Of a DNA stretch of 40,472 nt, positions 1 through 38,712 are shown piece after piece (position 1 is the stretch's first letter; the number at the start of each line of letters is the position of its first letter). Under the pieces are notes generated by a model. That model made no database searches and was not told where the DNA came from. It saw only the letters and a list, made by a program, of their open reading frames with translations. Made by a program: the position numbers and the translations under genes. Source of the DNA: Phycisphaerales bacterium (GTDB lineage Bacteria; Planctomycetota; Phycisphaerae; Sedimentisphaerales; Anaerobacaceae). The stretch lies in the NCBI GenBank assembly GCA_020352515.1, contig CP070678.1:3609014-3649485 (forward strand). Direction: 5' to 3'.

Positions 1-2742
1 GTGCGTGCCGTCTTCGGGGAAAAAAAGCAGAACAGCGTATGGGCGGATTGGCGAACGCTGACAGCCTTGGCAGGCACGGATTTGTGGAGTGAGCAAGCCA
101 AGGTCGCCGCCGCGGATCTGGAGCAAGCATTGGGCATGCCCGTAGCCTTTAGACAGTTCTGTTGCTCTTCATACGGTTTTACAGACCCGCCTGCATGGGG
201 TGATGCCGCCCGCTATCTGCGGGCGATGGCCAAATGCAGGTACTATGTAGGTGTGGGAAGAGGCAGTGGTCCCGGCCAGGGATTGTGCGATGCAGTGTCT
301 CTCGGATGTATATGTCTTGGTGAGAGGAATAAGCCGTTCCACAGAATGATATGCCATCCGTGCTGTCTTTGTGATAGTAAAGACGACATTCCTTTGATGC
401 TAAAGAGAATCGCTGCATCAGTTGAGCTGCAGGAGGAAATCCTGGTTTGGCAGGATAAGATGCTGAGGGAGCACTTTGTGGAGAAGCCGCTCGCCGTGCT
501 CAACAGGGCTGTTGAGATTAAGGCCGGCAAAACGCCGCGACGGTGGTCGAAGCAACAGAACATTACTCTATTTTCGATACCCAAAGCGTTTCGGGGTGAC
601 GACGCCGTCAGGCAGCGCAATGCCATCAAGAGCTGGATGCTGCTGGAGCCCCAGCCGGAAATAATCCTTTGTGGTGATGACGAGGGGGTGGCCGAGGTGG
701 CTTCGGAATTCGGGCTGAGCCATCTGCCCGACGTCCGGCGGAACGGCTATGGCACACCTTTGGTCAGTGATTTGTTTGAAAAGGCTCAGGTGTCGGCCTC
801 GCATGACGTTCTTGTGTACGTCAACGCGGATATTATTCTGCTGAATGATTTCATGCCGGCGGTCCACCGATGTGGGGAGTATTTTGATGAGTTTCTGATG
901 GTCGGTCGGCGATGGGACGCCGACGTTTCCGAACCGATTGATTTCGACGCCGGGGATTGGCAGGACAGGTTGCGGCGATTCATCCATACGGAAGCTTTTC
1001 TGCACGCTGCGACGGGAATTGACTACTTCGTGTTTACCCGGTACTTGTGGCCTATCATTCCTGACTTCGGTCTCGGACGCACCGTATGGGATAACTGGCT
1101 CGTTGGAAAGCCTATTGGCGACGGTAAGCCGGTTGTGGATGCAACGGATGCGGTGACCGCGATTCATCAGAACCACAAATTCGTTCCTTTCGGCCGGCGC
1201 CGCGAGGAGGAAACCGTCAATCTCACGTTGGCAGGCGGCAGCGATTCTTTGCGATTTACGACCCACGCAGCCTGGAAAGTGACGCCTTATGGGGTTGTGG
1301 CAAGACACGTGGGCGAAATTCTTGAAGACAATGACTTTGGCGCGGCCCTTATGTGTATGGCCGGAGTATTTCAGCAGGCGCCCGAGACTGTCAGAAGGCA
1401 GTATGAGAGCTACGTGTCTTATACAAGGCCCGAGAGGTTGAAAAGAATTGCAGACGCCGCAAAAAGCCTGCTTAGTCTGAACGCGAAGAACGGGAATCTA
1501 AGGCGCTTGTTGTCCCAATTGCACCAGATCGACCGTGCGAAGCTCATAACTGCGACGCGGCCCGACTCTCGCGCCAACACCGCCACCGAAGCATTATTTG
1601 ACAAAGGTGTAAACAATTTGAGCCCGGGAAATGACCGGCAAGTGTCGGGCGCTTTTGACCGGGCCTCGCAGACCCGCGCGCAAATACCTCACGTGGATGG
1701 GGCGCGAACCGCTGCCTGTGTCGGCCACGGAGCCGCGAGCTTGGCCGCAGAGGTCTGCGGAGCCGCATTTGCCGGGCAGTATGAGCGCGGCGGCGCGGGC
1801 AGACCGCCTCGCCAAATACACAGCGGTGTGGCAGAGCCGGAGCAGTCACCCGATTTGCAGGTAGAAGCCGGATATATATGTTCCCCGGCAGAGCGCGCCG
1901 AGCGAGAGGCACACTCGGAATATGGCCCTTTGGGCTTGCTTCCGTCGCGGTGCTGGCCGGCATCGTCGAGCCTTCAAAGCGCCCGGCGGACCACAGAGCA
2001 AGACTCCTCAGGCAAAAACACAGGTGGAAAGTGTCGTCAGATGTTGGAAACGTTGCCCTCAGAGAAAGCGCGATTGGTCGACGTCGAGCCTCGTGATGTG
2101 ATGGCCGCCAAGCAGACTCTCAAATCGTACTATTGCTCGCGTCTTGGAAATGTGTGGCAGAGCGCTGGCGCGCCCGTCTGGTTTGACCACGAAATTGACT
2201 ATCACTTGTGGCCCAAGAACCTATTCTGGATCGAGAGGGGGGTCTTCGGGCGGCTCGTTATGTCACCCGGCTGCAAAGTCCTGGACCTGTGCTGCGGCGA
2301 CGGGTATTTCAGCGATATCTGGTTCTCGACGATAGCGGGGCATATCGACGCGTGTGACAACGACGAAGATGCCTTGCGCTTCGCGGCGCAAAGGCACTTG
2401 AATGCGAAGGTCGCATACCATCGGGTGAACATACTGACACAGCCGCTGCCGTCAACGGACTACGATGTCGTTGCGTGGTTCGAGGGGATAGAGCATTTCT
2501 CAGAGCAACAGATAGGACAGGTTTTGGAGAAGATCCGCTCCTCGCTGGCTTCCGGAGGGCGCCTGGTAGGTTCTACCCCGCTGGTAACTCGGCAGGGACG
2601 TTGTGGAAATCGGCAGCACGACAGGGAATTCGACAGCCAAGGGGACCTCGAGGGTGTTTTGAAGATCGTCTTTGGCGATGTTCGGACGTGGGCTACCGTC
2701 TATCCCGGGAGGACGACCTGCTATTTCCACGCGAGCGAATAG
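1..2742 (+). CDS. Multi-domain glycosyltransferase-methyltransferase (5' end outside window)
   Basis: The reading frame is open from the first base (GTG), so the gene probably begins upstream. Residues about 1-170 look like the C-terminal half of a GT-B type glycosyltransferase, with a Gly-rich stretch SGPGQGLCDAVSLGC near 89-103. Residues about 188-470 resemble a GT-A-like module with a VNADI acidic motif. This module matches by eye the third module of the next gene: both have an AI-x-(S/T)W stretch, a later G-x-PLV, and a final N-(A/S)-DI. Residues about 680-913 form a SAM-dependent methyltransferase whose motif I is VLDLCCGDGYF. Between the domains, residues about 545-680 have an odd Cys-, Arg- and Ser-rich composition and no recognisable fold. 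The gene ends 16 nt before the giant glycosyltransferase gene and is probably cotranscribed with it. Sugar transfer and methylation of a surface or flagellar glycan is inferred. Confidence 0.75.
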   Translation: MRAVFGEKKQNSVWADWRTLTALAGTDLWSEQAKVAAADLEQALGMPVAFRQFCCSSYGFTDPPAWGDAARYLRAMAKCRYYVGVGRGSGPGQGLCDAVSLGCICLGERNKPFHRMICHPCCLCDSKDDIPLMLKRIAASVELQEEILVWQDKMLREHFVEKPLAVLNRAVEIKAGKTPRRWSKQQNITLFSIPKAFRGDDAVRQRNAIKSWMLLEPQPEIILCGDDEGVAEVASEFGLSHLPDVRRNGYGTPLVSDLFEKAQVSASHDVLVYVNADIILLNDFMPAVHRCGEYFDEFLMVGRRWDADVSEPIDFDAGDWQDRLRRFIHTEAFLHAATGIDYFVFTRYLWPIIPDFGLGRTVWDNWLVGKPIGDGKPVVDATDAVTAIHQNHKFVPFGRRREEETVNLTLAGGSDSLRFTTHAAWKVTPYGVVARHVGEILEDNDFGAALMCMAGVFQQAPETVRRQYESYVSYTRPERLKRIADAAKSLLSLNAKNGNLRRLLSQLHQIDRAKLITATRPDSRANTATEALFDKGVNNLSPGNDRQVSGAFDRASQTRAQIPHVDGARTAACVGHGAASLAAEVCGAAFAGQYERGGAGRPPRQIHSGVAEPEQSPDLQVEAGYICSPAERAEREAHSEYGPLGLLPSRCWPASSSLQSARRTTEQDSSGKNTGGKCRQMLETLPSEKARLVDVEPRDVMAAKQTLKSYYCSRLGNVWQSAGAPVWFDHEIDYHLWPKNLFWIERGVFGRLVMSPGCKVLDLCCGDGYFSDIWFSTIAGHIDACDNDEDALRFAAQRHLNAKVAYHRVNILTQPLPSTDYDVVAWFEGIEHFSEQQIGQVLEKIRSSLASGGRLVGSTPLVTRQGRCGNRQHDREFDSQGDLEGVLKIVFGDVRTWATVYPGRTTCYFHASE

Positions 2743-2758: not shown

Positions 2759-5700
2759 ATGAATGATATCCCTGTAATTCTTGTATGTTACAACCGGCCC
2801 TGGCACACCGCACAAGTTCTCAAGGCCCTGTTGGAGCATGATGTGCGGAACCTGTATATCTTCTCGGATGGGCCGAGAACGGACAGGGATATTGACGGCG
2901 TCCGGACGACTAGAAAGCTGTTCGCGACTGTCAGGTGGACCAGGCCCGAAATCATCGAGCGCTCCGAGAATATGGGTCTTGCGCGGAGCGTCGTGAGCGC
3001 CGCCAATTACGTGTTCGAGAAGCACGACAGGCTGATACTGCTTGAAGACGACTGCGTTCCGGGAAAGTACTTCTTCGATTACATGCAAGCGTGTCTCTCG
3101 AAGTATCGGGATAGCGAAAAAGTCTTCGGAATCAACGGATATACGGTGCCGATTCCCGAGGGCCTGCTGAAAGACTATCCCTATGACGTATATTTCTACC
3201 CCCGAATCGGAAGCTGGGGCTGGGCGACCTGGAAGAGGGCATGGAAACACTACGATCCCGACCTGTCCAGACTTTACAATCAGGTCACAGCCAATGGCAT
3301 TGACATCACGCAGGGCGGCGCGGACATACCCGCGGCCGTACGGGCGCTGCTGAGCGGGCAGCTCAAAGACGTCTGGACGCTCAACTGGGTTCTGTCTGTA
3401 TACCTGAAGGGCGGATGCTACGTATACCCCACCACTCCGCATATCCAGAATGTCGGGCTGGACGGGACCGGCGTGCATTGCGGCACCGCAAGGCACGTTG
3501 ACAATCCATGTCCCGCGCGCGAGCCCAGGAGATTTCCAGATACAATTATTCTCAATAAGGCTCTGATAGGCAACTACAACAGCTATTTCGGCGGGCCGGC
3601 GAAGTCTGCGAAGGTGGTTCAGGGCCCGGGCGCAAAGGTACTTCGAGGGGCCGCCGCCGACCGTCAAGAGTGCGAATCTGGCAACAGGACAGGGCGCAAG
3701 CGCCTGTCGATAGTGCACGTCAACACGCACGATTTTGCGGGAGGCGCGGCGAAGGTTGCCTGGCGGCTGGCAGAAGCTCAGCGCGGTGCCGGGCACGATT
3801 CGAAGATGGTTGTCGGCGAGAAGACGACCAACTCGCCGCACTCCTTTTCGTTTCCGATCGAGACGGACAGGTCGCTGCGAAGCCGCTGTGTGCGGGAGGG
3901 CCGGCTCTACTACGAGCACCATGGCAGTCACAAGCTGATTTACAACCCGCTGCTGCGTTCGGCCCACATCGTGCACCTGCACAATCTGCACGGCGGCTAC
4001 TTCAACCCTTTTTCGATTTCGGCCCTCTCACATCTCAAGCCGACGGTTTGGACCCTTCACGACATGCAGGCGATTACGGGCCACTGCGCGCATTCGTTCG
4101 ATTGTCAGCGATGGGAAAATGGCTGCGGACAGTGTCCGTATCCCGGGATTTATCCTGATATCCGTGTCGATACGAGCGAGCAGCTTTGCCGCGACAAGCA
4201 ACAGATCTACGACAATTCATATCTAACCATCGTTACCCCCTCGCGATGGCTCAAGGACAAGGTCGAGCGAAGCATTCTTAGAAATCATCCCGTTGAGCTG
4301 ATATACAACGGCGTGGATACCGACGTTTTCAAGCCTTACGACAAAAGACGGAGCAGGGAGAAATTCGGGGTGCCCGCCGACGCGCTGGTAATCGGGGCCG
4401 TGGCCCACTTCGGCGCGTTGAAGAATTCGTGGAAAGGGGGCAATTACACGCGCTCCGCCTTGAATGCTCTGCGGAACAAGCTTGACGACTTTGTCTTTGT
4501 CAACATAGGCGGCGAATGCCGCACCGACGATCCGCGAATCATGAACATACCGCTCATAACCGACGAAAACGAGCTTGCTCAGGCATATTCGGCGCTTGAC
4601 ATCTTCCTGTACACTCCCGTGGCGGATAACTGTCCGCTTGTGGTCCTCGAGGCGTTGTCCTGCGGGATTCCCATCGTGACTTTTGACACGGGCGGGGTGC
4701 CGGAATTGGTGCGGGACGGCGTGGATGGTTTAGTTACAGCCTATACGGACGTCGCTGCGGTGACGGCGGCTCTGAAGAGGCTCACCGCTGACCCGGATAT
4801 GCGGGCTGAATGTGGTCGCAACGCGCGCCTGCGAGCCACGGCCGAATTCGACCATAAAGTAATTGCCGCCCGGTACCAGAGGCTGTACGAGAGCTGTTTG
4901 CACCAGCGCGCCCGGGAACCGCTTAAGGTCAGGTTGTTTCCTGTTGGGGAAATCCCGGAGGTTGTTTTGAGCGATGTCTTTCTAAAGGCTGAGGACTTTA
5001 AGAAAAGCCTGACGCCCGGGACGCCGAAAGAGCAAGACGCTCAGGCAAAGCCCGATTCTCCCGGACGCCGAAACGTGGGGCCGACCGTTGCCACGAGCAT
5101 AGGGCCGAAAGGGATTGCAAGGCAGGCGGCGGCCATACAAACCTGGCAGAAGCTCGGCTTTCACGTTGTCTCTCTCAATTGTGCCAAGGAAATAGCGACA
5201 CTGCACAGATCGTTTCCCGGCGTTGAGTTCGTTCGGACGGCCCGGGATGCCGGAGAGAAGTTCGGCAGGCCTCTTGTGTACTTCGACGATGTGATGGATT
5301 ATCTTAGGGCGTGTGACTCGCAGCTCTGCGGAATCATAAATTCAGATATCTTCGTCGTCGGTGATGAGGCTGTTACCCGCTTTATTCAGGAGCAGGCCGC
5401 GGGCTCCCTCGTGTACGGCTCGAGGACGGATGTCGATTCGTTGGCGGTATTGAATGGTCGAGTCTATCACGAGGGATTCGACTTCTTCTTCTTCGACAGG
5501 TCAATAATCCCGCACCTTCCCGAATCGGACTTTTGTATCGGCCTGCCGTGGTGGGACTACTGGCTGCCGCTTATTATGACCATGGAAGGTGTTCCGATGA
5601 AGAGATTTGTTGCTCCATTCGCTTACCATCTCAGGCATGGAGCAAAGTGGTCTGGAGAACACTGGACCTACCTTGGCTGGCGTTTCCTCAATTATTTGCT

Positions 5701-8700
5701 GAGCAATATCAGCAGGAATTTTCACGAGGACCCCGATACGAACCTCTGGGCTTCATTGGGGCGGCTCATGTCGGCTTATCACGATGAGGAGCTCAGACTG
5801 AGCCACAGAAAAAACACCGACAAGATATCGGGCGGCGCCCTGTGCCGTTGCGTACTTGATTTTCTGGCGAGCAACACGCAGAGAATCTATCACGGCAGGG
5901 ATGACCTGCCTGTCGGGCGCCCTACAATTGCCGCGGCGGGCAAGAGGGACGATTTGCCCCAGCAGAGTAACCGGCCGTCGGCGGCTCAACAGAACGGGTC
6001 CGCAGAAGAATACGATGCCAGTGTAATAGTCTGCACCAAGGACCGGGCCGGTCTGCTCGACCGGATGCTTGGCAGTCTGAAGGAGGCGACGAAGGGTATA
6101 AGCTGTGAAGTTATTGCGGTCGAAGGCGGCTCCGGCGACGGCACGCAGGGCGTTTTGCACAAGCACGGTGTAACGAGAATCTACAGTGAAGCCGAATGTC
6201 TCGGCGAGGGCAGGCACTCGTGGCCGAGGTTGTACAACTTCGGATTCAGAAAAGCCAAAGGCCGGTACGCAATGTACGCGAGCGACGATGTCGTTTTCGG
6301 CAAAGGGGCCGTATCTCAAGCCGTCAGAACACTGAACGGACAGGCGGATTCGGTTGCGGGAGGTATCTTCTTCTACAGGAACATCCGAGCCGTAGATCCC
6401 GGTTGGGAGAAATACGGTATCGATTTTACCTACGGCTGCAAGCTCCTGATGAACTACGGCCTGTTCAGGCTCGATTGTTTCCGTGAGGTAGGGGGGCTGG
6501 ACGAGTCGTACGAGTTCTACTGTGCGGATTCGGATTTCTGCTACAAGCTCTATGAGCGCGGCCGCCAGCTTATCCCCTTGCCGGCGTGCCTGGTGACTCA
6601 CAACAACGTCTTGGACGCCCAAAAAATGGCGAACATGGCCGCCAGCAACCGTGACATAGAATTGCTGCTGCGGCGGTGGAGCCGTCTTGTCTCTCCGGAA
6701 ATTCCGAACCCGAGGCGCCTGATCTGGGACGAGGGTATTCTCGCACCGCTTGATTTGCCGAACCAGTTGGAGAGAGTGGATTCGAGCATTGAGAGTTTCT
6801 GGCATGGTCTGGCGTGTTTCCAACATGGTCTTTTCAAGGAGGCGCAGGGAGCATTCATTCAGGCGCTCAGATCAGGGTGTGACCACTGGCAGGTGCTTCG
6901 GTACCTGGCCAAAGCATCGCAGATGGGCGGAGACGAGGTCACGGCGCAGTGGGCGGGCGGATACCTGTCGAAGCCGATGCCTGGTTTCACAAGAGCCGGC
7001 GATTCTGTCGAACAATATGACGGAGAGAATCGGGCGGCGATCCCGCCGCGAGCGCCGGCAACTGTGCGAAGTCTGACGGAAAAGGCGGCGGCCGGCCCGG
7101 CGGGTGGTCTTGTCGGCCTGATATTCAGCAAGAACCGGGCCATGCAGCTTCAGGCCACGTTGAAGTCCTTAATGCTGCGCTGCCGAGACATCAATGACGC
7201 GGACTTGTATGTTCTCTACAAGGTCACAAACGAGCTGCACCGGCGGCAGTACGGCCGGCTGAGAGAACGGTTCTGCAACGTAAACTTCATTGAGGAAACC
7301 CAGTTCAAAGAACAGGTTCTGACGGTCGCGGGCCGGTATGAATATGTCATGTTCATGGTCGATGACAACCTATTCGTCAGAGATTTTAGCCTTTCCGACG
7401 TCGTGGAAGCTCTGCGGCGTAACAGTGACGCCCTTGGCTTCTCGCTGAGGTTGGGCACGAATACGGATTACTGCTACAGCCTCGACGCCTGCCAGAGGCC
7501 GCCCGAGTTCGAGCAGGCCGGTGACGGGATTGTCAAGTACAACTGGACACGAGCGGAAAACGACTATGGCTATCCGCTGGAGGTGTCGAGTTCCGTCTAC
7601 GCCGCGACCGACGTCATGGCGTTGTCTTCGCGGCTGGAGTTCGAAAATCCCAATACGCTCGAGGCTTCGATGGCGGCCAATGCCGGACTATACGCCCGCG
7701 CGAAGGGCAGCCTGCTGTGTTACGAGCGCTCGGTCACGTTCTGCAACCCCGTGAACATGGTCCAGTCGGTCTGTCCCAACAGGGTAGGCCGGAACTCCGA
7801 GTATTCGGCCGACACCCTGGCCCAAATCTTTGAAAGAGGCGGCAGGATAGATGTCGACCGGTACAACGGTTTTGTCCCCAACTCCTGCCACCAGGAGGTT
7901 GTTCTCCAGATTGTTGACTCATTGCCGAACGCCGCGGCAACCTCGGCTGCTGCGGGTCCGCCCATCGAGAATAGCCGTCGACCGCAGGACGCCGAGCCGA
8001 AATTCTCCATCGTGATGGCGAACTACAATAACGCCCGCTATGTTGCACAGGCCATAGAATCCGTCTGTAAACAGACCTTTGAGGATTGGGAGCTGATAAT
8101 TGTCGAGGATTGCTCCACAGACAATTCGGCGGATGTGATATCACCGTATTTGAGTGACAATCGAATCCGGCTGGTTCGGCACGGGCAGAACCGCGGGTAT
8201 ACCGCTGCTTTGAAAACCGGCATTGCGAACGTTCGCTCGGAGGATTTCGGCATCCTTGACAGTGACGACTGTCTCAAGACGGAAGCCGTCGAGAAGATGT
8301 ACCGGTGGCACATTGAGCGTCCCGACTGCGGTTTCGTATACTCACAGTTTGTGTATTGTGATGAAAATCTGGCTGAAACGAGAATCGGGTTCTGCCGGGA
8401 GATACCTGCCGGCAAAACGAGTCTTGACGCAGGGGTGGTCAGCCATTTTAAGACCTTCAAGCTCCGCGACTATCTCAAAACCTCCGGATACGACGAGAAC
8501 ATTCTATACGCCGAAGATATCGATATTGTCTACAAGATGGAGGAGGTGACGCGTTTGAAATTCGTCGATGAATGCCTCTACCTGTACAGGCAGGCGCCTG
8601 CGTCGCTGAGCCGTTCGAAGGACAAGATCAACATCGCTATAATGTCGAGAGTCAAGGCGAGGATAAACGCTCTCAGGAGAAGATGCAGCGCGTTGGCTGA

Positions 8701-9100
8701 AGCGACCGAGGGCAGTTTCGACGAGCTGTTTCGTGAGGCGGTCGATAATGCCAAAAGAGAATACGAGGATGTCGCGCAGTATCTTGTGATACTCAAGGAT
8801 TTGTACAAGAGAGGGATGCTGGACGGTCTGAATCTGCCGGCTGAGATATCGAGATTGCAGATTGAGGAGGCCGTTCTCTGGCTTGCGGCTAATGTGAGCT
8901 TGCGGTTCGACAGGCTGTTCGAGTTTCTCCAAGAGCAAAATAACATAGGTGGACGGTCGTCCACCGTTTCCGAAGGTGGTGCGCGATGCGACATGGTCCG
9001 GTATGCCGAGCACCGGCGATGGCACGGAGATTATGACAAACCCGGACCTTCCCGTATGAACGGCCGCGGCGCCGCCTGCCCATCCGGCAAAATACTATAG
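2759..9100 (+). CDS. Giant multi-module glycosyltransferase (2113 aa)
   Basis: One uninterrupted frame carries about six glycosyltransferase modules. Module 1 (residues ~1-270) is GT-A-like, with a DD pair at 97-98. Module 2 (~315-715) is GT4, with a C-terminal signature DNCPLVVLEALSCG. Module 3 (~775-1010) resembles the second domain of the preceding gene. Module 4 (~1083-1290) is GT2, with VIVCTKDR and ASDDVV. A short TPR-like helical segment follows (~1348-1404). Module 5 (~1450-1720) is GT-A-like, with a VDDN motif. Module 6 (~1747-2060) is GT2, with VMANYNN and LDSDDC and a helical tail. Linkers are Pro/Ala/Gly-rich. The start at 2759 is supported by AGAGG about 6 nt upstream; the ATG at 2755 meets a stop after two codons. 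Acceptor and donors are unknown. The position before fliD and near flagellin suggests filament or surface glycan assembly. I see no signal peptide, so it is probably cytoplasmic. Confidence 0.9.
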   Translation: MNDIPVILVCYNRPWHTAQVLKALLEHDVRNLYIFSDGPRTDRDIDGVRTTRKLFATVRWTRPEIIERSENMGLARSVVSAANYVFEKHDRLILLEDDCVPGKYFFDYMQACLSKYRDSEKVFGINGYTVPIPEGLLKDYPYDVYFYPRIGSWGWATWKRAWKHYDPDLSRLYNQVTANGIDITQGGADIPAAVRALLSGQLKDVWTLNWVLSVYLKGGCYVYPTTPHIQNVGLDGTGVHCGTARHVDNPCPAREPRRFPDTIILNKALIGNYNSYFGGPAKSAKVVQGPGAKVLRGAAADRQECESGNRTGRKRLSIVHVNTHDFAGGAAKVAWRLAEAQRGAGHDSKMVVGEKTTNSPHSFSFPIETDRSLRSRCVREGRLYYEHHGSHKLIYNPLLRSAHIVHLHNLHGGYFNPFSISALSHLKPTVWTLHDMQAITGHCAHSFDCQRWENGCGQCPYPGIYPDIRVDTSEQLCRDKQQIYDNSYLTIVTPSRWLKDKVERSILRNHPVELIYNGVDTDVFKPYDKRRSREKFGVPADALVIGAVAHFGALKNSWKGGNYTRSALNALRNKLDDFVFVNIGGECRTDDPRIMNIPLITDENELAQAYSALDIFLYTPVADNCPLVVLEALSCGIPIVTFDTGGVPELVRDGVDGLVTAYTDVAAVTAALKRLTADPDMRAECGRNARLRATAEFDHKVIAARYQRLYESCLHQRAREPLKVRLFPVGEIPEVVLSDVFLKAEDFKKSLTPGTPKEQDAQAKPDSPGRRNVGPTVATSIGPKGIARQAAAIQTWQKLGFHVVSLNCAKEIATLHRSFPGVEFVRTARDAGEKFGRPLVYFDDVMDYLRACDSQLCGIINSDIFVVGDEAVTRFIQEQAAGSLVYGSRTDVDSLAVLNGRVYHEGFDFFFFDRSIIPHLPESDFCIGLPWWDYWLPLIMTMEGVPMKRFVAPFAYHLRHGAKWSGEHWTYLGWRFLNYLLSNISRNFHEDPDTNLWASLGRLMSAYHDEELRLSHRKNTDKISGGALCRCVLDFLASNTQRIYHGRDDLPVGRPTIAAAGKRDDLPQQSNRPSAAQQNGSAEEYDASVIVCTKDRAGLLDRMLGSLKEATKGISCEVIAVEGGSGDGTQGVLHKHGVTRIYSEAECLGEGRHSWPRLYNFGFRKAKGRYAMYASDDVVFGKGAVSQAVRTLNGQADSVAGGIFFYRNIRAVDPGWEKYGIDFTYGCKLLMNYGLFRLDCFREVGGLDESYEFYCADSDFCYKLYERGRQLIPLPACLVTHNNVLDAQKMANMAASNRDIELLLRRWSRLVSPEIPNPRRLIWDEGILAPLDLPNQLERVDSSIESFWHGLACFQHGLFKEAQGAFIQALRSGCDHWQVLRYLAKASQMGGDEVTAQWAGGYLSKPMPGFTRAGDSVEQYDGENRAAIPPRAPATVRSLTEKAAAGPAGGLVGLIFSKNRAMQLQATLKSLMLRCRDINDADLYVLYKVTNELHRRQYGRLRERFCNVNFIEETQFKEQVLTVAGRYEYVMFMVDDNLFVRDFSLSDVVEALRRNSDALGFSLRLGTNTDYCYSLDACQRPPEFEQAGDGIVKYNWTRAENDYGYPLEVSSSVYAATDVMALSSRLEFENPNTLEASMAANAGLYARAKGSLLCYERSVTFCNPVNMVQSVCPNRVGRNSEYSADTLAQIFERGGRIDVDRYNGFVPNSCHQEVVLQIVDSLPNAAATSAAAGPPIENSRRPQDAEPKFSIVMANYNNARYVAQAIESVCKQTFEDWELIIVEDCSTDNSADVISPYLSDNRIRLVRHGQNRGYTAALKTGIANVRSEDFGILDSDDCLKTEAVEKMYRWHIERPDCGFVYSQFVYCDENLAETRIGFCREIPAGKTSLDAGVVSHFKTFKLRDYLKTSGYDENILYAEDIDIVYKMEEVTRLKFVDECLYLYRQAPASLSRSKDKINIAIMSRVKARINALRRRCSALAEATEGSFDELFREAVDNAKREYEDVAQYLVILKDLYKRGMLDGLNLPAEISRLQIEEAVLWLAANVSLRFDRLFEFLQEQNNIGGRSSTVSEGGARCDMVRYAEHRRWHGDYDKPGPSRMNGRGAACPSGKIL

Positions 9101-9285: not shown

Positions 9286-11640
9286 ATGTCAACCATACGT
9301 CTTCCAGGACTTCAATCTGGCATAGACACAGCGTCGCTTATAGAGCAGTTGATGGCCCTTGAACGGCGCACACTCAATGTCTGGGAGCAGCGCAAAAGCC
9401 TCTGGGAAGAGCGAAAGGAAGCACTCGGCACGCTTGAAACGAAGCTGCGCGACTTGAGAAATGCGACCCGCTCGCTCTCCGACGCCGATACGCTCCGCGC
9501 CTATACGATCGCTTCCAGTGATGAGGACAAGCTCACTGCCGAGGCGTCAAACGATGCTTTTGAGGGTAATCACACGGTCGTAATCAACCAACTGGCCACC
9601 GCCGAGCGATGGGTTCATGCCGACGGCCTAAAATATGCCGAGGATTATGTCGGCGCAGGCACCTTCATATATTCCTACAATCACAAGGAAGTGACCGTCA
9701 CAACCACTGCGACAACTACGCTCGAAGAGCTGGTCGGCTTGATCAATAACGACGCGGATAATCCGGGCGTTACGGCAGGTCTGCTTCACTATAACGATGC
9801 TTTTCACCTTGTTCTGAACGGCAATGAAGCGGGTTCCGACTATAGAATCTCGATAAATCAAAGCAGCACGGAAATCTGGGAGGCCGACAGCGCTTTTACG
9901 GTCGGCAGCGACGATGCGGTATTGACCACGAAGATTACACAGTTGGATCAGTTCGGCGGTACTCTCGAGGGCGGAGAAGTGATCGAAATAACCGGGACCG
10001 ACCGCTACGGCAATGCCATTACCCAGGTGGACCTGAGCATTACAGAGAACACCAAGCTAAGCCATCTGGTCGACGAAATCAACGACGCCTTCGACGGCAA
10101 CGTAAAGGCCACGCTCGAAAACGGCAAGATTGTCGTGACGGATGGTTTCGCCGGCACGAGCAGTCTGACGGTGGCTTTGACCTACAACGCCAACGGCTCT
10201 TCTGCGACGCTTACGCTGCCCGCGATGGCTGTTTCGGCAGAGGGCGGCAGTACTACGGCCGACCTGGCTGGATTTGCCGCATCCTATTTCACTCTAACCC
10301 AGACCGCGCAGGAATCCAAGATCAAGGTTGACGGCTATCCTTCGGTCACGGCGGTCGAAGAGGTGCAGGAGCTGGTCCACACGCAGGCGGCGACCAGCGG
10401 AGTTTTTGCCCTCAGCTACGGCGGCCAGACAACCGCACCCATCGCATATAATGCCGGCGTTGCAGAAATCCAGGCGGCCCTCGATGCGCTTTCGAGCGTT
10501 AATCCCGGAGATATAACGGTCGGTGGTGATCCCTTGAATGTATCGGGAACTCTTACGTTCACGTTTGCAGACACTCTGGGTGACGTCAGTGGAATTCTGA
10601 TTGATTGCTCGGCCCTGAGTGACAATTACACAGTAACCGAGCAAACCAAGGGTGTCGATGCCTGGATCGGCCGCAATTCCAACACGGTCGACAACGTAAT
10701 TCACGGTGTGACGCTCCATTTGCACGATACCACGGATGCGAGCGGCGAGCAAATAACGCTGACCAGGGACATACAATCGGTCAAAGACAAGCTGAACACC
10801 ATGGTCGAAGCCTATAACGCCGCGGTGGAATATGTGAAACAGAAAACGGCCTACGACGAGATAACAAAAACTGCGGGCGTCCTCATGGGGGACTTCGTTG
10901 TTTCGACAATAAAGTACGGATTTCGCGGGCCGCTCGTGCAACAGACGGCCGGATTCATAGACGACCTCGACACGTTTCTGACGCCGGGAAATATAGGGCT
11001 TGTGCTCGACAGAGACGGGGTGTTGAGCCTGGATACGAGCGAATTTGACAAGGCTATAGCCGAGGACTACCAGGGTGTGCTGGCGATCATCGGCGCCGAC
11101 AAGACCGGCAGCAGCAACAGCAACACAATCAAGTTCTACGGCGCCAGCAGCGAGTATACAACCGCGGGCGAGTACGATGTTCAGGTGACAATAAGCGGTG
11201 GGGTCATAACCGGCGCCAAGATGAAGCTCGCAAGCGAGTCAACCTACCGCGACGCAACGTACAGCGGTAATATCGTCACCGGGGACAGCAGCTTTGACGA
11301 CAACGGCGACCCCGTTTATGCTGAAAATGGTCTGCAGGTCAGCATTGACCTGGGCACGGACGGCGTCTACACGGCAACTGTGCGCGTAAAGCAGGGCTTC
11401 ACAGGAAGAATGGAAGATCAGCTCGACAGAATGCTCAGAGCTACAACGGGCTCAATGATAATCAATCAGGAACACGTGAACGATCAGATCAAGGTGCTGG
11501 AGGACAAAATCGAGCTTGAAGAAGCCCGCTTGTCCCAGAGGGAGACAAGATTGATCAGTCGCTTTGCCCGCCTCGAAGCAACGCTGGCCCTGTTGCAAAG
11601 CCAGATGGCCGCCGCAGGGATCATTAACATACAACGATAG
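9286..11640 (+). CDS. fliD: Flagellar cap protein FliD (hook-associated protein 2) with an inserted domain
   Basis: FliD forms the cap at the filament tip and guides flagellin polymerisation outside the cell. The N-terminus has the family signature (LPGLQSGIDTASLIEQLMAL, residues ~6-25) followed by a helical D0/D1 region. The C-terminal FliD_C part (from ~485) ends in a long coiled coil (~715-775). At 784 residues it is much longer than the 450-500 typical of enterobacteria. Part of the excess is a segment at ~370-450 that splits the usual 'KVDG...NTVDNVIHGVTL' region; it starts GVFALSYGGQTTAPIAYNA and looks like a repeat module of large secreted proteins. A GGGCGGG stretch lies 5 nt before ATG. 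The gene stands between the giant glycosyltransferase and the convergent minus-strand flagellar operon, with a sigma28-like promoter upstream. Confidence 0.93.
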   Translation: MSTIRLPGLQSGIDTASLIEQLMALERRTLNVWEQRKSLWEERKEALGTLETKLRDLRNATRSLSDADTLRAYTIASSDEDKLTAEASNDAFEGNHTVVINQLATAERWVHADGLKYAEDYVGAGTFIYSYNHKEVTVTTTATTTLEELVGLINNDADNPGVTAGLLHYNDAFHLVLNGNEAGSDYRISINQSSTEIWEADSAFTVGSDDAVLTTKITQLDQFGGTLEGGEVIEITGTDRYGNAITQVDLSITENTKLSHLVDEINDAFDGNVKATLENGKIVVTDGFAGTSSLTVALTYNANGSSATLTLPAMAVSAEGGSTTADLAGFAASYFTLTQTAQESKIKVDGYPSVTAVEEVQELVHTQAATSGVFALSYGGQTTAPIAYNAGVAEIQAALDALSSVNPGDITVGGDPLNVSGTLTFTFADTLGDVSGILIDCSALSDNYTVTEQTKGVDAWIGRNSNTVDNVIHGVTLHLHDTTDASGEQITLTRDIQSVKDKLNTMVEAYNAAVEYVKQKTAYDEITKTAGVLMGDFVVSTIKYGFRGPLVQQTAGFIDDLDTFLTPGNIGLVLDRDGVLSLDTSEFDKAIAEDYQGVLAIIGADKTGSSNSNTIKFYGASSEYTTAGEYDVQVTISGGVITGAKMKLASESTYRDATYSGNIVTGDSSFDDNGDPVYAENGLQVSIDLGTDGVYTATVRVKQGFTGRMEDQLDRMLRATTGSMIINQEHVNDQIKVLEDKIELEEARLSQRETRLISRFARLEATLALLQSQMAAAGIINIQR

Positions 11641-28337: not shown

Positions 28338-29354
28338 TCACAAATCGACCTTTCTGCCGTGCCATTTGTGACGCGCGGTTTCAATGGATCTCAGGAAAGC
28401 TTCCCTGAAGCCGCCCTTGGAAAAACGCTCGCTCACGGTCTTGCGTGCCTGGCGGCCCATCGCCACCGCTAAATCTCGGTCTTTCAGCAGTCTCTCGGCG
28501 TATCGCCCCAGCTCGTCGGGCTCGTCGCTGAGAAAACCGCTGACCCCGTGCTCGACCGGAGAGCCCGGGTGCCGGTTGCCCACAACCGGCATCCCCGCCG
28601 CCATTGCCTCTAATGTTGCCATGTTGTATCCGTCTTCGAGCTTCGGGTCGGCGGTGTGGATGTAGAAACGGTGACTTTGCAGCATCCTCTTGAGGTCCTC
28701 CCAGTTCCGGGCGGCCGTAACCTGTGGCATGCCCGGGTTGTGACCGACAATCTGAATCGGCAGCCCGCCAAACGCTCTATCGTGAAGGTCCCATAATAGT
28801 ATTCTCTTGCGACTTTCAACAAAATTACAAATCCGAAGCCCGCATGCGTTCTCCCCGCTGTAAGGAAGATAATCCTCCGGATCAGCGAAGAACGGGACTA
28901 CATCCTCGGTGAAGCCCCAGGACCTGCCCTTAAGCTGCGAAACCGCCACGGCGTGGCCCCCGACCATATCCAGGTAATTATGAAGCAGCTCCTTCATCTG
29001 TGCCGGCTCAACGTCGGACTTCTCTTCGAGCATCCGGCCTTCGAGCGTAGAGTGAATAACAATAAGCCGTGGCTCACTGCGGTGCTTCACATCCAGTAAA
29101 TCGGCGATATTATGCCCGATAATGCAGTAGTAGCGCTTACGGGATTCCAGCGCTTCGGATAAGCTCACAAATTGGCAGCCGGTCGGTACGGGTCGTATCT
29201 GTTCGTCCCAGGCTTGTTTATATCGGCCTTTGAGTCCCGTGATGACATCGAGGCCGTACCCCAGCACCCCAAGCTGGTACACCCACGCTTCGTGGCAGTT
29301 GAATACCATCAGGGTTCGCTCGACCGCTGGCTCTCCGGTTTCCTGCATTTCCAT
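28338..29354 (-). CDS. Family 4 glycosyltransferase
   Basis: The 338-residue product has a GT-B layout. The C-terminal half contains the nucleotide-sugar signature EDGYNMATLEAMAAGMPVVG (~243-262), where the first acid of the E-x7-E motif is Asp, and a following helix typical of GT4 (GRQARKTVSERFS). The N-terminal half is shorter and divergent. There is no signal peptide or membrane helix. The gene lies on the minus strand between fliK and flagellin, so filament modification is a reasonable guess from position alone. No promoter was recognised in the region shared with flagellin. Confidence 0.8.
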   Translation of the reverse strand: MEMQETGEPAVERTLMVFNCHEAWVYQLGVLGYGLDVITGLKGRYKQAWDEQIRPVPTGCQFVSLSEALESRKRYYCIIGHNIADLLDVKHRSEPRLIVIHSTLEGRMLEEKSDVEPAQMKELLHNYLDMVGGHAVAVSQLKGRSWGFTEDVVPFFADPEDYLPYSGENACGLRICNFVESRKRILLWDLHDRAFGGLPIQIVGHNPGMPQVTAARNWEDLKRMLQSHRFYIHTADPKLEDGYNMATLEAMAAGMPVVGNRHPGSPVEHGVSGFLSDEPDELGRYAERLLKDRDLAVAMGRQARKTVSERFSKGGFREAFLRSIETARHKWHGRKVDL

Positions 29355-29736: not shown

Positions 29737-30555
29737 ATGTTAGCAATCAAGAACAATCTTATGGCGGTAAACGCCGCTCGACAGCTGGGGCGAACGTACG
29801 AAATGCTGGCAAGATCCGTCGAAAGACTTTCTTCCGGCCTTCGGATCAACGGCGCCAAGGACGATGCGGCAGGCTTGGCCGTTCGCGAGCTAATGCGGGC
29901 GGATATTGCAGTCATGCAGCAGGGCACACGAAACGCCCGCGACGGGATCAGCATGCTCCAGACAATGGAAGGTGCGCTGGCCACAGTGGATGACATCCTT
30001 GTGCGTATGCAGGCTCTCGCCGAGCAGGCCTCTACCGGCTCGTATTCTTCCGCGCAGCGATACATCATGCACCAGGAGTTCGACGAGCTGCGCTTGGAAA
30101 TCGACCGTATCGCATCATCCACCAAGTTCAACGGCATCAGCATGCTCGACAATAGCACCACCGTGTCGATCCAGTTCGGCGAGCTGACCAACGACAAGAT
30201 CGACGTTGCCGGCAGCATAATGACCAGCGCCGCGGCCGGCCTGAACGTTACGGGTCTGGCAATAGACACGGTTGGGGGCGCCCAGTCGGCAATCGCAAAG
30301 CTCGATACCGCCATCGGCATCAAGGACGAGGCCCGCGCAAAGTTCGGTTATAAGATGAACCGCCTCGAAAGCGCCGTGAATGTTCTCAGCGTCACGTCCG
30401 AAAACCTCATGGCTTCCGAGTCGCGTGTTTCTGATGTCGACGTAGCCACCGAAATGGCGGCGCTGACCAGAAACCAGGTTCTGTCACAAGCAGGTATCGC
30501 CATGCTCGCACAGGCAAACACGATGCCTCAGATGGCGCTGCAGTTGCTCGCATAA
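29737..30555 (+). CDS. fliC: Flagellin
   Basis: This is the filament subunit. At 272 residues it consists essentially of the conserved D0/D1 helices, with only a short middle (~140-185) and no D2/D3 outer domains. The N-terminus has the signature SVERLSSGLRINGAKDDAAG (~28-47), and the C-terminus the D0 end LSQAGIAMLAQANTMPQMAL. The middle contains several Ser/Thr residues (for example DNSTTVS and SIMTSAAAGL), possible sites of O-glycosylation given the glycosyltransferases nearby. AAGGAG lies 10 nt before the ATG. Likely sigma28-controlled. fliS follows after a strong hairpin. Confidence 0.96.
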   Translation: MLAIKNNLMAVNAARQLGRTYEMLARSVERLSSGLRINGAKDDAAGLAVRELMRADIAVMQQGTRNARDGISMLQTMEGALATVDDILVRMQALAEQASTGSYSSAQRYIMHQEFDELRLEIDRIASSTKFNGISMLDNSTTVSIQFGELTNDKIDVAGSIMTSAAAGLNVTGLAIDTVGGAQSAIAKLDTAIGIKDEARAKFGYKMNRLESAVNVLSVTSENLMASESRVSDVDVATEMAALTRNQVLSQAGIAMLAQANTMPQMALQLLA

Positions 30556-30628: not shown

Positions 30629-30731
30629 ATGATTTAGAACCTGATAACAAGGCTTCGAACCTCGTCTGCCCCACTGTCTGGGAAGTCGCGTTCGGGCCTT
30701 GGACATGCCAGACGCAGGCCGGAGCAATATT

Positions 30732-31091
30732 ATGAATGGAGTCTCAACATACAAGGACACATCGGTCACCACACAGAGCAGTGGGCGCCTTGTAGTCATC
30801 CTCTACGACGGGGCAATCAAATTCCTCAGACTGGCAATCAAGGAATTGGAAGCGAAAAACTACGAGGCAAAAGGCCGGTACATAAACAAGGCCCTCGACA
30901 TAATCAACGAGCTCAACATGGTGCTCGATATGGAAGGCGGCGGTGAGGTGGCCGCCAATCTACGCAAGCTATACACGTTTATGACCGGGCACCTCAACGA
31001 GGCCAACACAAAGTGCGACCCCCGGATGGTTCAGGAGGTAATCACATTGCTGGAAGAGCTTAACAAGGGCTGGAAAGCGATAACAGGCTAA
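30732..31091 (+). CDS. fliS: Flagellin export chaperone FliS
   Basis: FliS binds the C-terminal D0 helices of flagellin in the cytoplasm and prevents early polymerisation. The 119-residue four-helix protein has the family N-terminus (MNGVSTYKDTSVTTQSSGRL) and the conserved VVILYDGAIKFLRLAI helix (~22-37). The start at 30732 is chosen over an in-frame ATG at 30699 because GGAG lies 7 nt upstream and because homologues begin here. It sits 176 nt after flagellin. The 280-nt region after it, up to 31371, contains no gene I can support. Confidence 0.94.
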   Translation: MNGVSTYKDTSVTTQSSGRLVVILYDGAIKFLRLAIKELEAKNYEAKGRYINKALDIINELNMVLDMEGGGEVAANLRKLYTFMTGHLNEANTKCDPRMVQEVITLLEELNKGWKAITG

Positions 31092-31371: not shown

Positions 31372-33156
31372 GTGAGTGAGAGCCGCAACTTGGAAGTCCG
31401 GGAGGCTGTTTCTGTAGGCCTGAGCAGTGCGAAGGACAGGCTCTGTCAAGTCCTGAGCGCCGCAAGAGTCGCCTTGCAGTCCGGGCGACTTCAGCAGGCC
31501 GCCGACCTCCTCGATGATCGGACTGTCGCGATAATCTCGGATACACTCCCACCGGACCCCGCTCAAAAGAGCCTCCTGTTCGAGCTTGCAGAGATACTGT
31601 GGAAGACCGGAAAGGAGGCTCAAGCCGAGAAGTGCTATGAAAAGATACTCGCCCTCGGACCGGACGCTGCGGCGTACAACAAGCTCGGCAGCCTTTACCA
31701 GTACATGGGCCGAATACACGAGGCTTTGCAGTGCCAGAGACAGGCCGTCGAGGCCGAACCTGATAGGCCCGAACTCTGGGCCAATCTCGCAAGAGTACTT
31801 ATGGAAACGGGCGATTTGCAGGAGGGAATCGACCTGCTCCGAAAGGCCCTCAAGGCAATGCCCGGCAACGCCCAGGCCCACTCCAACCTGCTCTTTCGCC
31901 TTCACCAACTGCAAAATCTTGACCCTCAGAAACTTTTTGCAGAGCACAGGCAGTGGGGCCGCATTCATGCTCCGCCGGCCATGGCGGCACCGTCACATGA
32001 TAATGTCTACGATGTTGACCGAAAACTGAGGGTCGGCTACATCTCCCCGGACTTTCGCAGGCACTCGGTGGCATATTTCTTCGAATCCCTGCTCGACGGT
32101 CACAACCGAAGGGCCGTCGAACTGTACGGCTACGGCAGCGTGGAGTTCCCTGACCAGGTCACCGAGCGCCTCAAGGAAAAGTTCGATTTCTACCGAGATA
32201 TTCGCAATGTGGACGACGACGCGGCCGCCGCCTTGATTCGACAGGACAGCATAGACATACTCGTGGACCTCTCAGGACACGTCGGAGACAATCGCCTGCT
32301 CGTCCTGGCGCGAAAGCCCGCCCCGATTCAGGTCACGTACCTCGGCTACCCCGATACAACCGGCATGCAGGCCATCGACTACCGCCTGACGGATATGCTC
32401 GCCGACCGCCCCGAAGCACAGAAACTCCACACCGAGGAGCTGGTCTTCCTGCCGGAGGGATTCCTCTGCTACAGGCCGCCGGATTTCGCCCCGCCCGTCG
32501 CGCCGCTGCCCGCCGGTGAAAAGGGCTACATTACCTTTGGCACGTTCAACAACAATTGCAAGATAAACCCGGTCATAGGCAAAATATGGGCCGAAGTGCT
32601 TGGCTCAGTCCCCGGGTCCCGTCTGTTGTTGAAGCTCAAGGGAGGCGATGCCCTGCAGTTGAGAGACCGGTATATACGTCGCTTTGAGCGGTGGGGCGTC
32701 GATCCCGCGAGGGTCGGTCTCTGTGGGTGGAAATCTCCCGATCAGCATCTGCAACTGTACGGCCAGATCGACATCGCCCTCGATACCTATCCGTACAACG
32801 GCACCACAACCACCTGTGAGGCGCTCTGGATGGGCGTGCCGGTAATTACTCTCATCGGGCAATGCCACGCCTCCAGGGTGGGGCTCAGTATTCTGAACCG
32901 CGTCGGCCTGGAGTTCTTTGCGGCCTCGACGCCCGGAGAGTATGTTGCCAAGGCGGTCTCGCTTGCGACCAGCCGGGCGGCCCTCGGGCGAATTAGAGAC
33001 TCGATGAGGGCCAGAATAGCCGCCTCAGGGCTTTGTTACGCCAAGGGGTTCGCTCGTCACGTGGAAGCCGCTTATCGACAGATGTGGCGCCGATGGTGTC
33101 GGGGTCGGCGCCCGCCTCGCACCGGTGGGCCCTGTGGGAAGGAGAGCGGACTGTGA
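31372..33156 (+). CDS. TPR/O-GlcNAc transferase-like protein (GT41)
   Basis: The 594-residue protein joins an N-terminal tetratricopeptide region (~60-185, e.g. AAYNKLGSLYQYMGRIHEAL) to a GT41 catalytic domain of the OGT/SPINDLY type (~218-580). Family landmarks are LRVGYISPDFRRHSV (219-233), APIQVTYLGYPDTTG (317-331), TFNNNCKINP (391-400) with Lys397 at the place of the UDP-binding lysine of human OGT, and NGTTTTCEALWMGVPVITL, followed by a C-terminal helical end. Such enzymes add O-linked sugars to Ser/Thr of proteins. The GTG start has GAGAGG 5 nt upstream. Its stop codon overlaps the next start (GTGA). Located after flagellin and fliS, it is the best candidate in the window for direct flagellin O-glycosylation; the target is inferred. 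Confidence 0.88.
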   Translation: MSESRNLEVREAVSVGLSSAKDRLCQVLSAARVALQSGRLQQAADLLDDRTVAIISDTLPPDPAQKSLLFELAEILWKTGKEAQAEKCYEKILALGPDAAAYNKLGSLYQYMGRIHEALQCQRQAVEAEPDRPELWANLARVLMETGDLQEGIDLLRKALKAMPGNAQAHSNLLFRLHQLQNLDPQKLFAEHRQWGRIHAPPAMAAPSHDNVYDVDRKLRVGYISPDFRRHSVAYFFESLLDGHNRRAVELYGYGSVEFPDQVTERLKEKFDFYRDIRNVDDDAAAALIRQDSIDILVDLSGHVGDNRLLVLARKPAPIQVTYLGYPDTTGMQAIDYRLTDMLADRPEAQKLHTEELVFLPEGFLCYRPPDFAPPVAPLPAGEKGYITFGTFNNNCKINPVIGKIWAEVLGSVPGSRLLLKLKGGDALQLRDRYIRRFERWGVDPARVGLCGWKSPDQHLQLYGQIDIALDTYPYNGTTTTCEALWMGVPVITLIGQCHASRVGLSILNRVGLEFFAASTPGEYVAKAVSLATSRAALGRIRDSMRARIAASGLCYAKGFARHVEAAYRQMWRRWCRGRRPPRTGGPCGKESGL

Positions 33157-34136
33157 AACGGTTTGCGTTGATTGGAGCCGCGGGATACGTTGCCAAACGC
33201 CACATGCGGGCAATAGAGCAGACGAACAACACGCTTGTCGCCGCTCTGGACAAGAGCGATTCGGTCGGTGTCATCGATTCCTATTTCCCGGAGGCCGATT
33301 TCTTCACCGAATTTGAGCGATTCGACCGTCACATCGAGAAGCTCAAGCGCCAAGACGGACGCAGGATTGACTATGTCTCTATCTGCTCGCCTAACTACCT
33401 TCACGACGCCCACATTCGTTTCGCCCTGAGGGTGGGCGCGGACGCCGTCTGCGAGAAGCCGCTGGTCTTGAATCCGTGGAACGTCGATGCCCTGGCCTCG
33501 ATGGAGTCAGAGAGCGGCCGAAAAGTATATAACATACTCCAGTTGCGTCTTCATCCGGCAATTATCGCGCTCAAGCAAGACGTCGAATCCTCAAACCGGA
33601 CGAAAAAGTATGATATTGATTTGAGCTACATTACCGCTCGGGGCCGGTGGTACCGTTTCTCGTGGAAGGGTGACGTCTGCAAGTCCGGCGGCATCGCAAC
33701 GAACATCGGCATTCATTTCTTCGATACGCTAATTTGGATTTTTGGCCCCGTCCAGGATACCTGCGTTCATCTTTGCGAACCGACCCGGGCGGCCGGATTG
33801 ATGGAGCTGCAGAATGCCAGAGTCCGCTGGTTCCTCTCAATTGACCCGGCCGATCTGCCGGGCGGGCCCGCCGGCAAGCCGTCGAAGACTTTTCGCTCAA
33901 TCAGAATCGGGCCGGATGAGGTCGACTTCTCCGATGGATTTGACGATTTGCACACCTCCAGCTACGCCCACATACTGAGCGGCCGGGGCTTCGGACTCCA
34001 AGAGGCCCGGCCCGCTGTCGAGGCTGCATATTGCATCCGTCACGCAAAGCCCGTGGGACTCAGGGGCGATTATCATCCTTTTCTGCTTCGGTCGAGACGT
34101 GAGGCTTTTGCGGGTGCGATCGGGGCGCAGGCGTGA
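33153..34136 (+). CDS. wlbA: Gfo/Idh/MocA dehydrogenase, WlbA/WbpB-like
   Basis: The 327-residue protein has an N-terminal Rossmann fold beginning KRFALIGAAGYVAKRHMRAI, the CEKPLVLN motif (~103-110) typical of Gfo/Idh/MocA oxidoreductases, and the family C-domain (KSGGIATNIGIHFFDTLIWI). It most resembles WlbA/WbpB, which oxidises UDP-N-acetylglucosaminuronate at C3 using NAD in the route to 2,3-diacetamido-2,3-dideoxyuronic acids. The GTG at 33153 overlaps the stop codon of the OGT-like gene (GTGA), with GGAGAG upstream. The next gene encodes the matching acetyltransferase. The transaminase (WbpE-like) and the C6 dehydrogenase (WbpA-like) are not in the window. Confidence 0.85.
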   Translation: MKRFALIGAAGYVAKRHMRAIEQTNNTLVAALDKSDSVGVIDSYFPEADFFTEFERFDRHIEKLKRQDGRRIDYVSICSPNYLHDAHIRFALRVGADAVCEKPLVLNPWNVDALASMESESGRKVYNILQLRLHPAIIALKQDVESSNRTKKYDIDLSYITARGRWYRFSWKGDVCKSGGIATNIGIHFFDTLIWIFGPVQDTCVHLCEPTRAAGLMELQNARVRWFLSIDPADLPGGPAGKPSKTFRSIRIGPDEVDFSDGFDDLHTSSYAHILSGRGFGLQEARPAVEAAYCIRHAKPVGLRGDYHPFLLRSRREAFAGAIGAQA

Positions 34137-34173: not shown

Positions 34174-34833
34174 ATGTCTGAAACCGACTATTTTGTTCAT
34201 GAATCCGCCTGTGTTGACCGGCCCTGTCGGATAGGCAGCGGTACGAAGATATGGCACTTCTCACATGTGATGAAAGATGCGGAGATAGGCTGCAATTGCA
34301 TACTCGGCCAGAACGTGCATGTTGCCGGCGGCGTGGTAATCGGCGATAACGTCAAAATCCAGAACAACGTCTCGCTTTACGCCGGCGTGATTGTCGAGGA
34401 TGACGTGTTCCTCGGCCCCTCCTGTGTTTTGACCAACATCAAAAACCCAAGGTCACAGGTAAACAGGCACGCTCTCTACGAAAAGACCGTTCTCCGTCGC
34501 GGCGCTACTGTCGGCGCAAATGCAACGATAATCTGCGGCGTCGAATTGGGCCGATACTGCTTCATTGCCGCCGGCGCCGTCGTCGGCCGGGATGTCCCCG
34601 ATTACGCGCTGATGGTCGGGGTGCCGGCAAGGCAGGACGGCTGGGTGAGCCGTCACGGCATTCGCCTGCCTCGGCCTGATTCGGATGGAATTATGGTCTG
34701 TCCGGAAAGCGGCTACGCATATAGGCTCATCGAGCCTGATCTGCTGCGCTGCCTTGACCTGGATGAGGACCGACCGCTCCCCCCTGACAAGGCCGTCGGA
34801 AGGGCCTTCTGTGCTGATCCTATCAGAAAGTAG
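34174..34833 (+). CDS. wlbB: Hexapeptide N-acetyltransferase, WlbB/WbpD-like
   Basis: The 219-residue protein is a left-handed beta-helix acyltransferase with imperfect hexapeptide repeats over ~15-150 (IGCNCILGQNVHVAGGVVIG, then VEDDVFLGPSCVLTN). The family's KNPRSQVNRH loop at ~90-99 and the C-terminal PARQDGWVSRHG and CPESGYAYRL motifs match WbpD/WlbB, which acetylates the 3-amino group of UDP-2-acetamido-3-amino-2,3-dideoxyglucuronate. It ends with ~18 residues more than I expect of relatives. It lies 37 nt after wlbA, probably in the same operon, though no clear Shine-Dalgarno precedes the ATG. Confidence 0.88.
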   Translation: MSETDYFVHESACVDRPCRIGSGTKIWHFSHVMKDAEIGCNCILGQNVHVAGGVVIGDNVKIQNNVSLYAGVIVEDDVFLGPSCVLTNIKNPRSQVNRHALYEKTVLRRGATVGANATIICGVELGRYCFIAAGAVVGRDVPDYALMVGVPARQDGWVSRHGIRLPRPDSDGIMVCPESGYAYRLIEPDLLRCLDLDEDRPLPPDKAVGRAFCADPIRK

Positions 34834-37340: not shown

Positions 37341-37737
37341 GAACTCAAGGTCCTTCAGAGGTCGTTTATACCCTTGTTCTTCCCTGCTGGCAATACAGTT
37401 TCGCGATATTAGGCAAAGCGCTGCTTTTGCCTGTAACCAAAGTCGAATCTTGCCCACTATCAGGGTAAAGGGCTCTGGCGCAGAACGTCAATAACGCCGA
37501 TATGCGGCAGCTTGGACCAGCTTGGCTGGCAGTCAACATAGAATGAGTCTGCAGCCCCATTCTTTGGAGCACGGATGAGTTTCCGGCAGACGTGTCCCCA
37601 TGGCCGGGCTCGGCCCAAGAACCGCTTTCACCGAAGATTTTTGACAATAATGGTCGTTCAGGCTCGTCTGCATGGCGTGTTTGTGCAGGGGGCCGTGAGG
37701 AGTATGAATGAAAACCGTCAGTGGAAAGGAGCTTGGA
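37341..37737. other. Non-coding gap between divergent genes
   Basis: This 397-nt stretch separates the minus-strand DUF2284 gene from the plus-strand methyltransferase gene. I see no gene, repeat or clear promoter in it. The long minus-strand frame that crosses it is an antisense shadow of the downstream genes. Confidence 0.4.
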
Positions 37738-38646: not shown

Positions 38647-38712
38647 TAGCCATTGACAGGGATGTCGTTTTCGGTCATATTGCGCCCAAACGATGCTTTT
38701 GAAGGGATGAAA

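Follow-up and report, generated by a model that had tools for sequence, protein, structure and literature searches.

What does a single protein with six glycosyltransferase (GT) modules do immediately 5' of a flagellar gene? The question is raised by a stretch of 40,472 nucleotides, hereafter the window, from a Phycisphaerales bacterium (GTDB: Sedimentisphaerales, Anaerobacaceae; assembly GCA_020352515.1, contig CP070678.1). Its position is G000:C1:3609014-3649485, G000 being the window's own genome. On the forward strand, one uninterrupted frame with an ATG start (2759..9100) encodes 2113 residues (~237 kDa). It is followed, after 185 bp, by the flagellar cap gene fliD (9286..11640, forward strand; FliD_N and FliD_C Pfam matches). 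We call "giant" such a multi-GT chain encoded in one reading frame, and M1 to M6 the modules of this one. An earlier sequence-only reading of the window had described a single six-module frame beside fliD. Both points are confirmed, the first also by fused homologues with the same module order in independent assemblies (G002, 2336 aa; G112, 2292 aa). The evidence below makes it probable that the region is a flagellin-glycosylation island in which the giant serves as the main elongating enzyme, the elongating transferases being fused into one modular chain.

The modules, the boundaries of which were set manually, are not equally easy to identify. Pfam gives for the giant Glycos_transf_2 (154 bits for a cut-off of 23.3, in three stretches) and Glyco_trans_1_4, i.e. 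GT4 (70 bits for a cut-off of 27). M2 (3692..4933, aa 312-725) is a GT4 module of GT-B fold, while M4 (5996..6763, aa 1080-1335) and M6 (7970..8923, aa 1738-2055) belong to GT2; these and all other parts of the giant are on the forward strand. Among PDB sequences M2 matches BshA-type GT4 enzymes and M6 is closest to the chondroitin polymerase K4CP. AlphaFold2 models were made of two halves, with a mean predicted local distance difference test (pLDDT) score of 58 and 69.6; M2, M4 and M6 are usable in them, and the C-terminal halves of M1 and M5 are not. The M2 model matches the GT-B enzyme MshA (3c4q; Z 31.9, 342 residues, root mean square deviation 3.1; VIA), and the M4 and M6 models match GT-A enzymes (6p61, WrtF, TarP) with Z values of ~20-22 over 162-227 residues (VIA). 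The active-site motifs are retained: E1117, D1177 and D1257 in M4, D1836-D1837 and D1920 in M6, with D1177/D1257 and D1836-D1837/D1920 conserved at 90% or above. In M2 the EX7E site reads D623-x7-E631, the first E being replaced by D, and is invariant in eight homologues. The transferase identity of these three modules is thus well supported. Between M4 and M5 lies a TPR-like helical pair (T; 6785..6970, aa ~1343-1404), four helices in the model, which is kept beside M4 in relatives.

For the other three modules the fold search is hardly informative because its lists were filled by M2, M4 and M6. M1 (2759..3544, aa 1-262; homologues in G131, G133 and G006) is GT-A-like. It carries an LEDD motif (E96-D98), aligns with the GT2 module M6 at a probability of 93% in profile-profile comparison (hhalign, as for the probabilities below), reaches only E=0.07 with GNT-I in Pfam and has no match among PDB sequences. 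M3 (5030..5914, aa 758-1052; motif N861-S-D863) and M5 (7106..7924, aa 1450-1722) belong to no Pfam family. Neither has a credible Pfam match even when 10 and 17 homologues, respectively, are scanned, nor a PDB sequence match at E≤1. M3 is related to a module of the upstream gene that we name U2 (97.7%), and aligns with M4 at 20%; the match of M5 to M4 is weak (6-18%), and its VDDN motif (1534-1537) is invariant in 17 genomes. Nevertheless, LEDD in M1, NSD in M3, VDD in M5 and NAD in U2 align in register with the DXD of GT2, and the motif residues are conserved within each module family. From these profiles and motifs M1 is likely a glycosyltransferase, and M3 and M5 are plausible ones. The six modules therefore stand. 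In the sequence-only reading one GT4, two clear GT2 and the TPR-like segment were well seen; the three further GT-A-like modules are weaker than it implied.

Two more features of the chain deserve mention. Its C-terminal tail (8969..9094) resembles the last ~40 residues of an extra GT2 module that lies after M6 in relatives (37% over 43 aa, E=0.003, in frame, by tblastn), and is probably the scar of a deleted seventh module. No clear transmembrane segment was seen in the giant (top 19-residue hydropathy 1.61), which fits the expectation for a cytoplasmic enzyme.

Is the position beside fliD meaningful? Strong homologues of the giant (>200 bits) were found in 15 of 60 relatives; 13 are on the contig of fliD, and the contigs of the remaining two are short (4.9 and 5.2 kb). 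The comparison with fliD presence (13/42 fliD+ against 2/18 fliD- genomes) is underpowered and was not used beyond contig linkage. We rely on an unbiased survey anchored on fliD, a gene present in 62/89 genomes of the family and 113/161 of the order. A locus was positive if either of the two nearest co-directional genes 5' of fliD was a multi-GT frame. The counts concern readable loci, mostly of draft metagenome-assembled genomes, and are uncorrected for shared ancestry. Such a frame was found in 57 of the 89 readable genomes of the order (f1 36/51, f7 18/22, f2 2/9, f3 1/1, f4 0/2, f5 0/4), and the link to fliD that had been proposed from position alone is thus a conserved pattern. The longest frame per positive locus has a median of 1932 and a maximum of 4014 residues, and reaches at least 1000 residues in 55 of the 57 loci, at least 2000 in 26 and at least 3000 in six. 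Most giant-less loci keep the order flgK-flgL-(TPR)-~210 aa gene-fliD, from which it follows that the giant occupies the flgL-fliD interval. G026, G072, G090, G091, G110 and G111 have no giant at fliD where the locus is readable and contain arrays of TPR-GT41 genes instead (a genome has up to ~20 GT41 matches, of which several lie within one frame), as if they relied on a different glycosylation strategy.

The composition of other giants varies. Modules of the distant ones were detected with profiles built in this analysis and their counts are minima. In the 4014-aa giant of G064, four GT2 stretches are joined by TPRs and a radical SAM domain with SPASM; the 3706-aa giant of G003 comprises six GT2 stretches, three Glyco_trans_1_2, one GT4 and a B12-binding radical SAM domain. 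GT2, GT4 and GT9 are combined in G141, and some further giants include methyltransferase or NTP-transferase domains. In G001 the protein directly beside fliD joins a Maf-type domain (PF01973) to three GT2 stretches. Maf proteins are a flagellin-modifying family. PF01973 is present in G001, G022, G081, G097 and others; unlike these, the window genome has no match to it. Outside the order, Desulfovibrio sp. UBA6079 encodes a 2421-aa multi-GT protein with six modules by local profiles, and thus large GT chains extend beyond this order.

Pairwise comparisons show modules being gained, lost and exchanged, and these changes fall at domain borders. Residues 310-752 of the window giant match 2-446 of the G022 chain and 1065-1419 match 447-806: M3 is cleanly missing in G022, which has a ~410-residue insert ahead of M5. 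The chains of G062 and G064 differ in layout by a stretch of ~570 residues in G064 and are otherwise colinear. The FliDs of G098 and G099 are 88.5% identical; their chains agree at 82% over the C-terminal half, whereas no similarity is detectable along the N-terminal ~1250 residues. Between blocks of the G002/G112 pair the synonymous divergence (dS) jumps, with values from 0.08 to 1.02, a pattern that block-wise recombination would be expected to give. At the same time whole chains are under purifying selection: in three close pairs of relatives the ratio of non-synonymous to synonymous divergence (dN/dS) is 0.09-0.31 in every 300-codon block.

These features have to be considered together with the other end of the flagellar cluster. 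The flagellin gene (29737..30555, forward strand) encodes a short, 272-residue form with little beyond D0-D1 and few outer-domain residues. It is followed, on the same strand, by fliS (30699..31091), a TPR-GT41 gene of the OGT/FlmG type (31372..33156, 594 aa; Glyco_transf_41 161.7 bits, TPR families N-terminal), a Gfo/Idh/MocA dehydrogenase (33033..34136, the true start probably lying inside this range; WbpB-like by size and context) and a hexapeptide sugar acetyltransferase (34174..34833; WbpD-like by context). The flagellin-fliS-GT41 cassette recurs in four relatives (G002, G013, G021, G022), and G013 also carries both sugar genes after GT41. GT41 is found in 26/62 fliD+ against 2/27 fliD- genomes (p=0.001, a value that ignores phylogeny). 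Among 114 genes near giants the commonest Pfam families are TPR, GT2, radical SAM, epimerase and methyltransferase, and matches like LegB, LegC, HddA and HddC occur below curated cut-offs. Thus transferase and sugar genes are inserted among filament genes, at a locus that varies between relatives by module gain, loss and swap. This cassette, its FlmG-like layout, the association of GT41 with fliD and the sugar-gene neighbours, together with the conserved place of the giants 5' of fliD and the Maf domain fused in G001, lead us to interpret the region as a flagellin-glycosylation island.

Four points are inferred: that the modules are active enzymes, that flagellin is the acceptor, that GT41 is the initiator, and the order of addition, which would be as follows. 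The TPR-GT41 protein, by its homology and place the likely initiating transferase, would probably put the first sugar or sugars on Ser/Thr of flagellin in the cytoplasm, and might act on FliD too. The giant would then add a number of different sugars, each module contributing at least one, from donors supplied by the nearby sugar-nucleotide genes, and the decorated flagellin would be exported. Fusion would hold the enzymes at fixed stoichiometry, and a module inserted, lost or swapped would alter the glycan.

Several observations weigh against this interpretation. Flagellin lies ~20 kb from the giant and is not "close" as the sequence-only reading had it, though it belongs to the same flagellar cluster. 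GT41 is present in only 13 of 36 class-A f1 genomes and is missing from many giant-bearing genomes, where a different initiator must act. M3 and M5 are tied to glycosyltransferases by a weak profile match and the fold pattern only. Finally, giants exist away from fliD, in G036 (1380 aa; no FliD detected in this genome) and on contig C89 of G022 (2308 aa). These cases do not form a consistent pattern, but they lead us to reject the giant as an exclusively flagellar type of protein. In the region 2167-14211 of contig C89 two giants of 1692 and 2308 aa adjoin each other. They have GT2 modules, the second also has two Maf-type domains, and fliD is not next to them in the stretch read.

A first alternative concerns how much the fusion matters and is compatible with the role proposed above: an operon of separate transferases may have drifted into one frame, the modules still working alone. 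The chains do come apart at the T/M5 border in G033, in G081 and, through a single in-frame stop, in G013; f7 genomes often encode M5-M6 as a separate gene of ~700 residues before fliD. This splitting is, however, not the consistent pattern. Long chains are the rule at fliD, and the other GT matches of the window's own genome sit in frames of 246-533 aa, which argues that fusion is favoured at this locus. A fusion of no mechanistic consequence thus appears possible, though somewhat doubtful. At the other extreme, a fixed-order assembly line run by the giant is plausible. It is unlikely, on the other hand, that the flagellar glycan of the order is made on a true assembly line, i.e. by chains, up to ~4000 residues long, whose module order and identity encode the glycan. 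It is equally speculative that radical-SAM and methyltransferase modules are part of such a code and that module exchange rewrites the glycan, as in modular polyketide and peptide synthases; the sequence data bear on this colinear reading through module exchange at domain borders only.

According to a second alternative, the product of the chain is a polysaccharide of the cell surface (O-antigen, capsule or exopolysaccharide), and the giant only happens to sit at an insertion hot-spot in the flagellar cluster. The proximity of M6 to K4CP and the multi-GT frame of G036 would agree with it. So would the U2-type module (YVNADI motif), a free-standing protein of ~300 aa in many phyla, where it mostly stands alone near other transferase genes; in named relatives, Sedimentisphaerales-type genomes, it is fused into fliD-side giants. 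But the place 5' of fliD is kept in most readable genomes, GT41 is linked to flagellin and a Maf domain can be fused to the chain. Moreover, the 25 commonest Pfam families among the 114 neighbours include no flippase, polymerase, initiating phosphoglycosyltransferase or ABC exporter. We therefore consider a polysaccharide product improbable.

That the target is FliD or another axial protein (FlgK, FlgL) rather than flagellin seems very unlikely to us. fliD is indeed the nearest conserved neighbour; however, the interval still ends in fliD at giant-less loci, so that closeness to fliD may mark an insertion site only. Furthermore, GT41 adjoins flagellin-fliS, and it is flagellin that is modified in well-studied systems (PMC7591256, PMC4065374). 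Lastly, the idea of an assembly artefact or chance frame, suggested by the 100-N scaffold gap that directly precedes window position 1, has a negligible probability and is rejected: the frame contains no N and has an even codon-position guanine-cytosine pattern except in its last few codons, independent assemblies of other species show the same fused order, and dN/dS points to purifying selection along whole chains.

Some further genes of the window and its genome deserve note. The gene preceding the giant (1..2742, forward strand), the start of which is lost in the scaffold gap, encodes a GT-B-like end, then the U2 module (571-1260), a TPR-like stretch and a methyltransferase (2279-2560). The residues following U2 and the TPR-like part (about 1545-2080) look degenerate compared with relatives, in which the gene stops after the TPR; here the frame continues into the fused methyltransferase. 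A GT4-like glycosyltransferase gene (28338..29354, reverse strand) diverges from flagellin and has the same position in G002 and G022. A second Flagellin_N match occurs elsewhere in the genome (G000:C1:3167144-3167533, in a frame of 395 aa). The adjacent open reading frames (ORFs) 21087-22115 and 22199-23191 are alike and look like tandem fliG paralogues. The large ORFs 34940-36619 and 37366-40470 have no Pfam match at E≤0.001, and the latter may be a non-coding open frame.

How does this system compare with those already described? Glycosylation islands or flagellar hypervariable regions beside fliC or fliD are known in Enterobacteriaceae (PMC4875605), Geobacillus (PMC5109656) and Clostridium, where the fliD-flanked region lies between flgB and fliD (PMC13317340). 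The place by fliD or fliC, the variable glycosyltransferases, the sugar-nucleotide and methyltransferase genes and the variation between strains are alike. However, the known islands have separate transferase genes (1-3 in Enterobacteriaceae, up to 5 in Geobacillus), whereas here they are mostly fused in chains of 1000-4014 residues. The TPR-GT41 protein of the window, with its 594 residues and its gene adjoining flagellin, resembles FlmG of Caulobacter, a cytoplasmic flagellin O-glycosyltransferase of 596 aa with TPR and GT-B parts (PMC7591256); but FlmG acts alone while the window adds a giant elongating chain. In Aeromonas, flagellin is reported to be glycosylated before chaperone binding (PMC4065374).

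The order-wide family of giants combines six or more modules, other fused enzyme types, one fixed genomic place and natural swaps, insertions and splits. These variants are ready pairs for testing module order against glycan structure, and channelling by fusion; they also suggest that these poorly cultured bacteria carry abundant and variable glycans on their filaments. Our literature search, in which subscription papers were little covered, found no account of GT chains of six or more modules at a flagellar locus, and the bacterial multi-module glycosyltransferases of known function that it turned up consist of two or three modules each (PMC11231755, PMC13411425). The closest in architecture are glycan polymerases such as K4CP, heparosan synthase 2, WbdA and WbbB (PMC13411425, PMC11231755). 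Like the giant, K4CP-type enzymes have several GT modules per polypeptide, and their GT-A folds match M4 and M6. Nevertheless they make repeat polymers with two or three modules, while the giant of the window is encoded at a flagellar locus and its six modules come from several sequence families.

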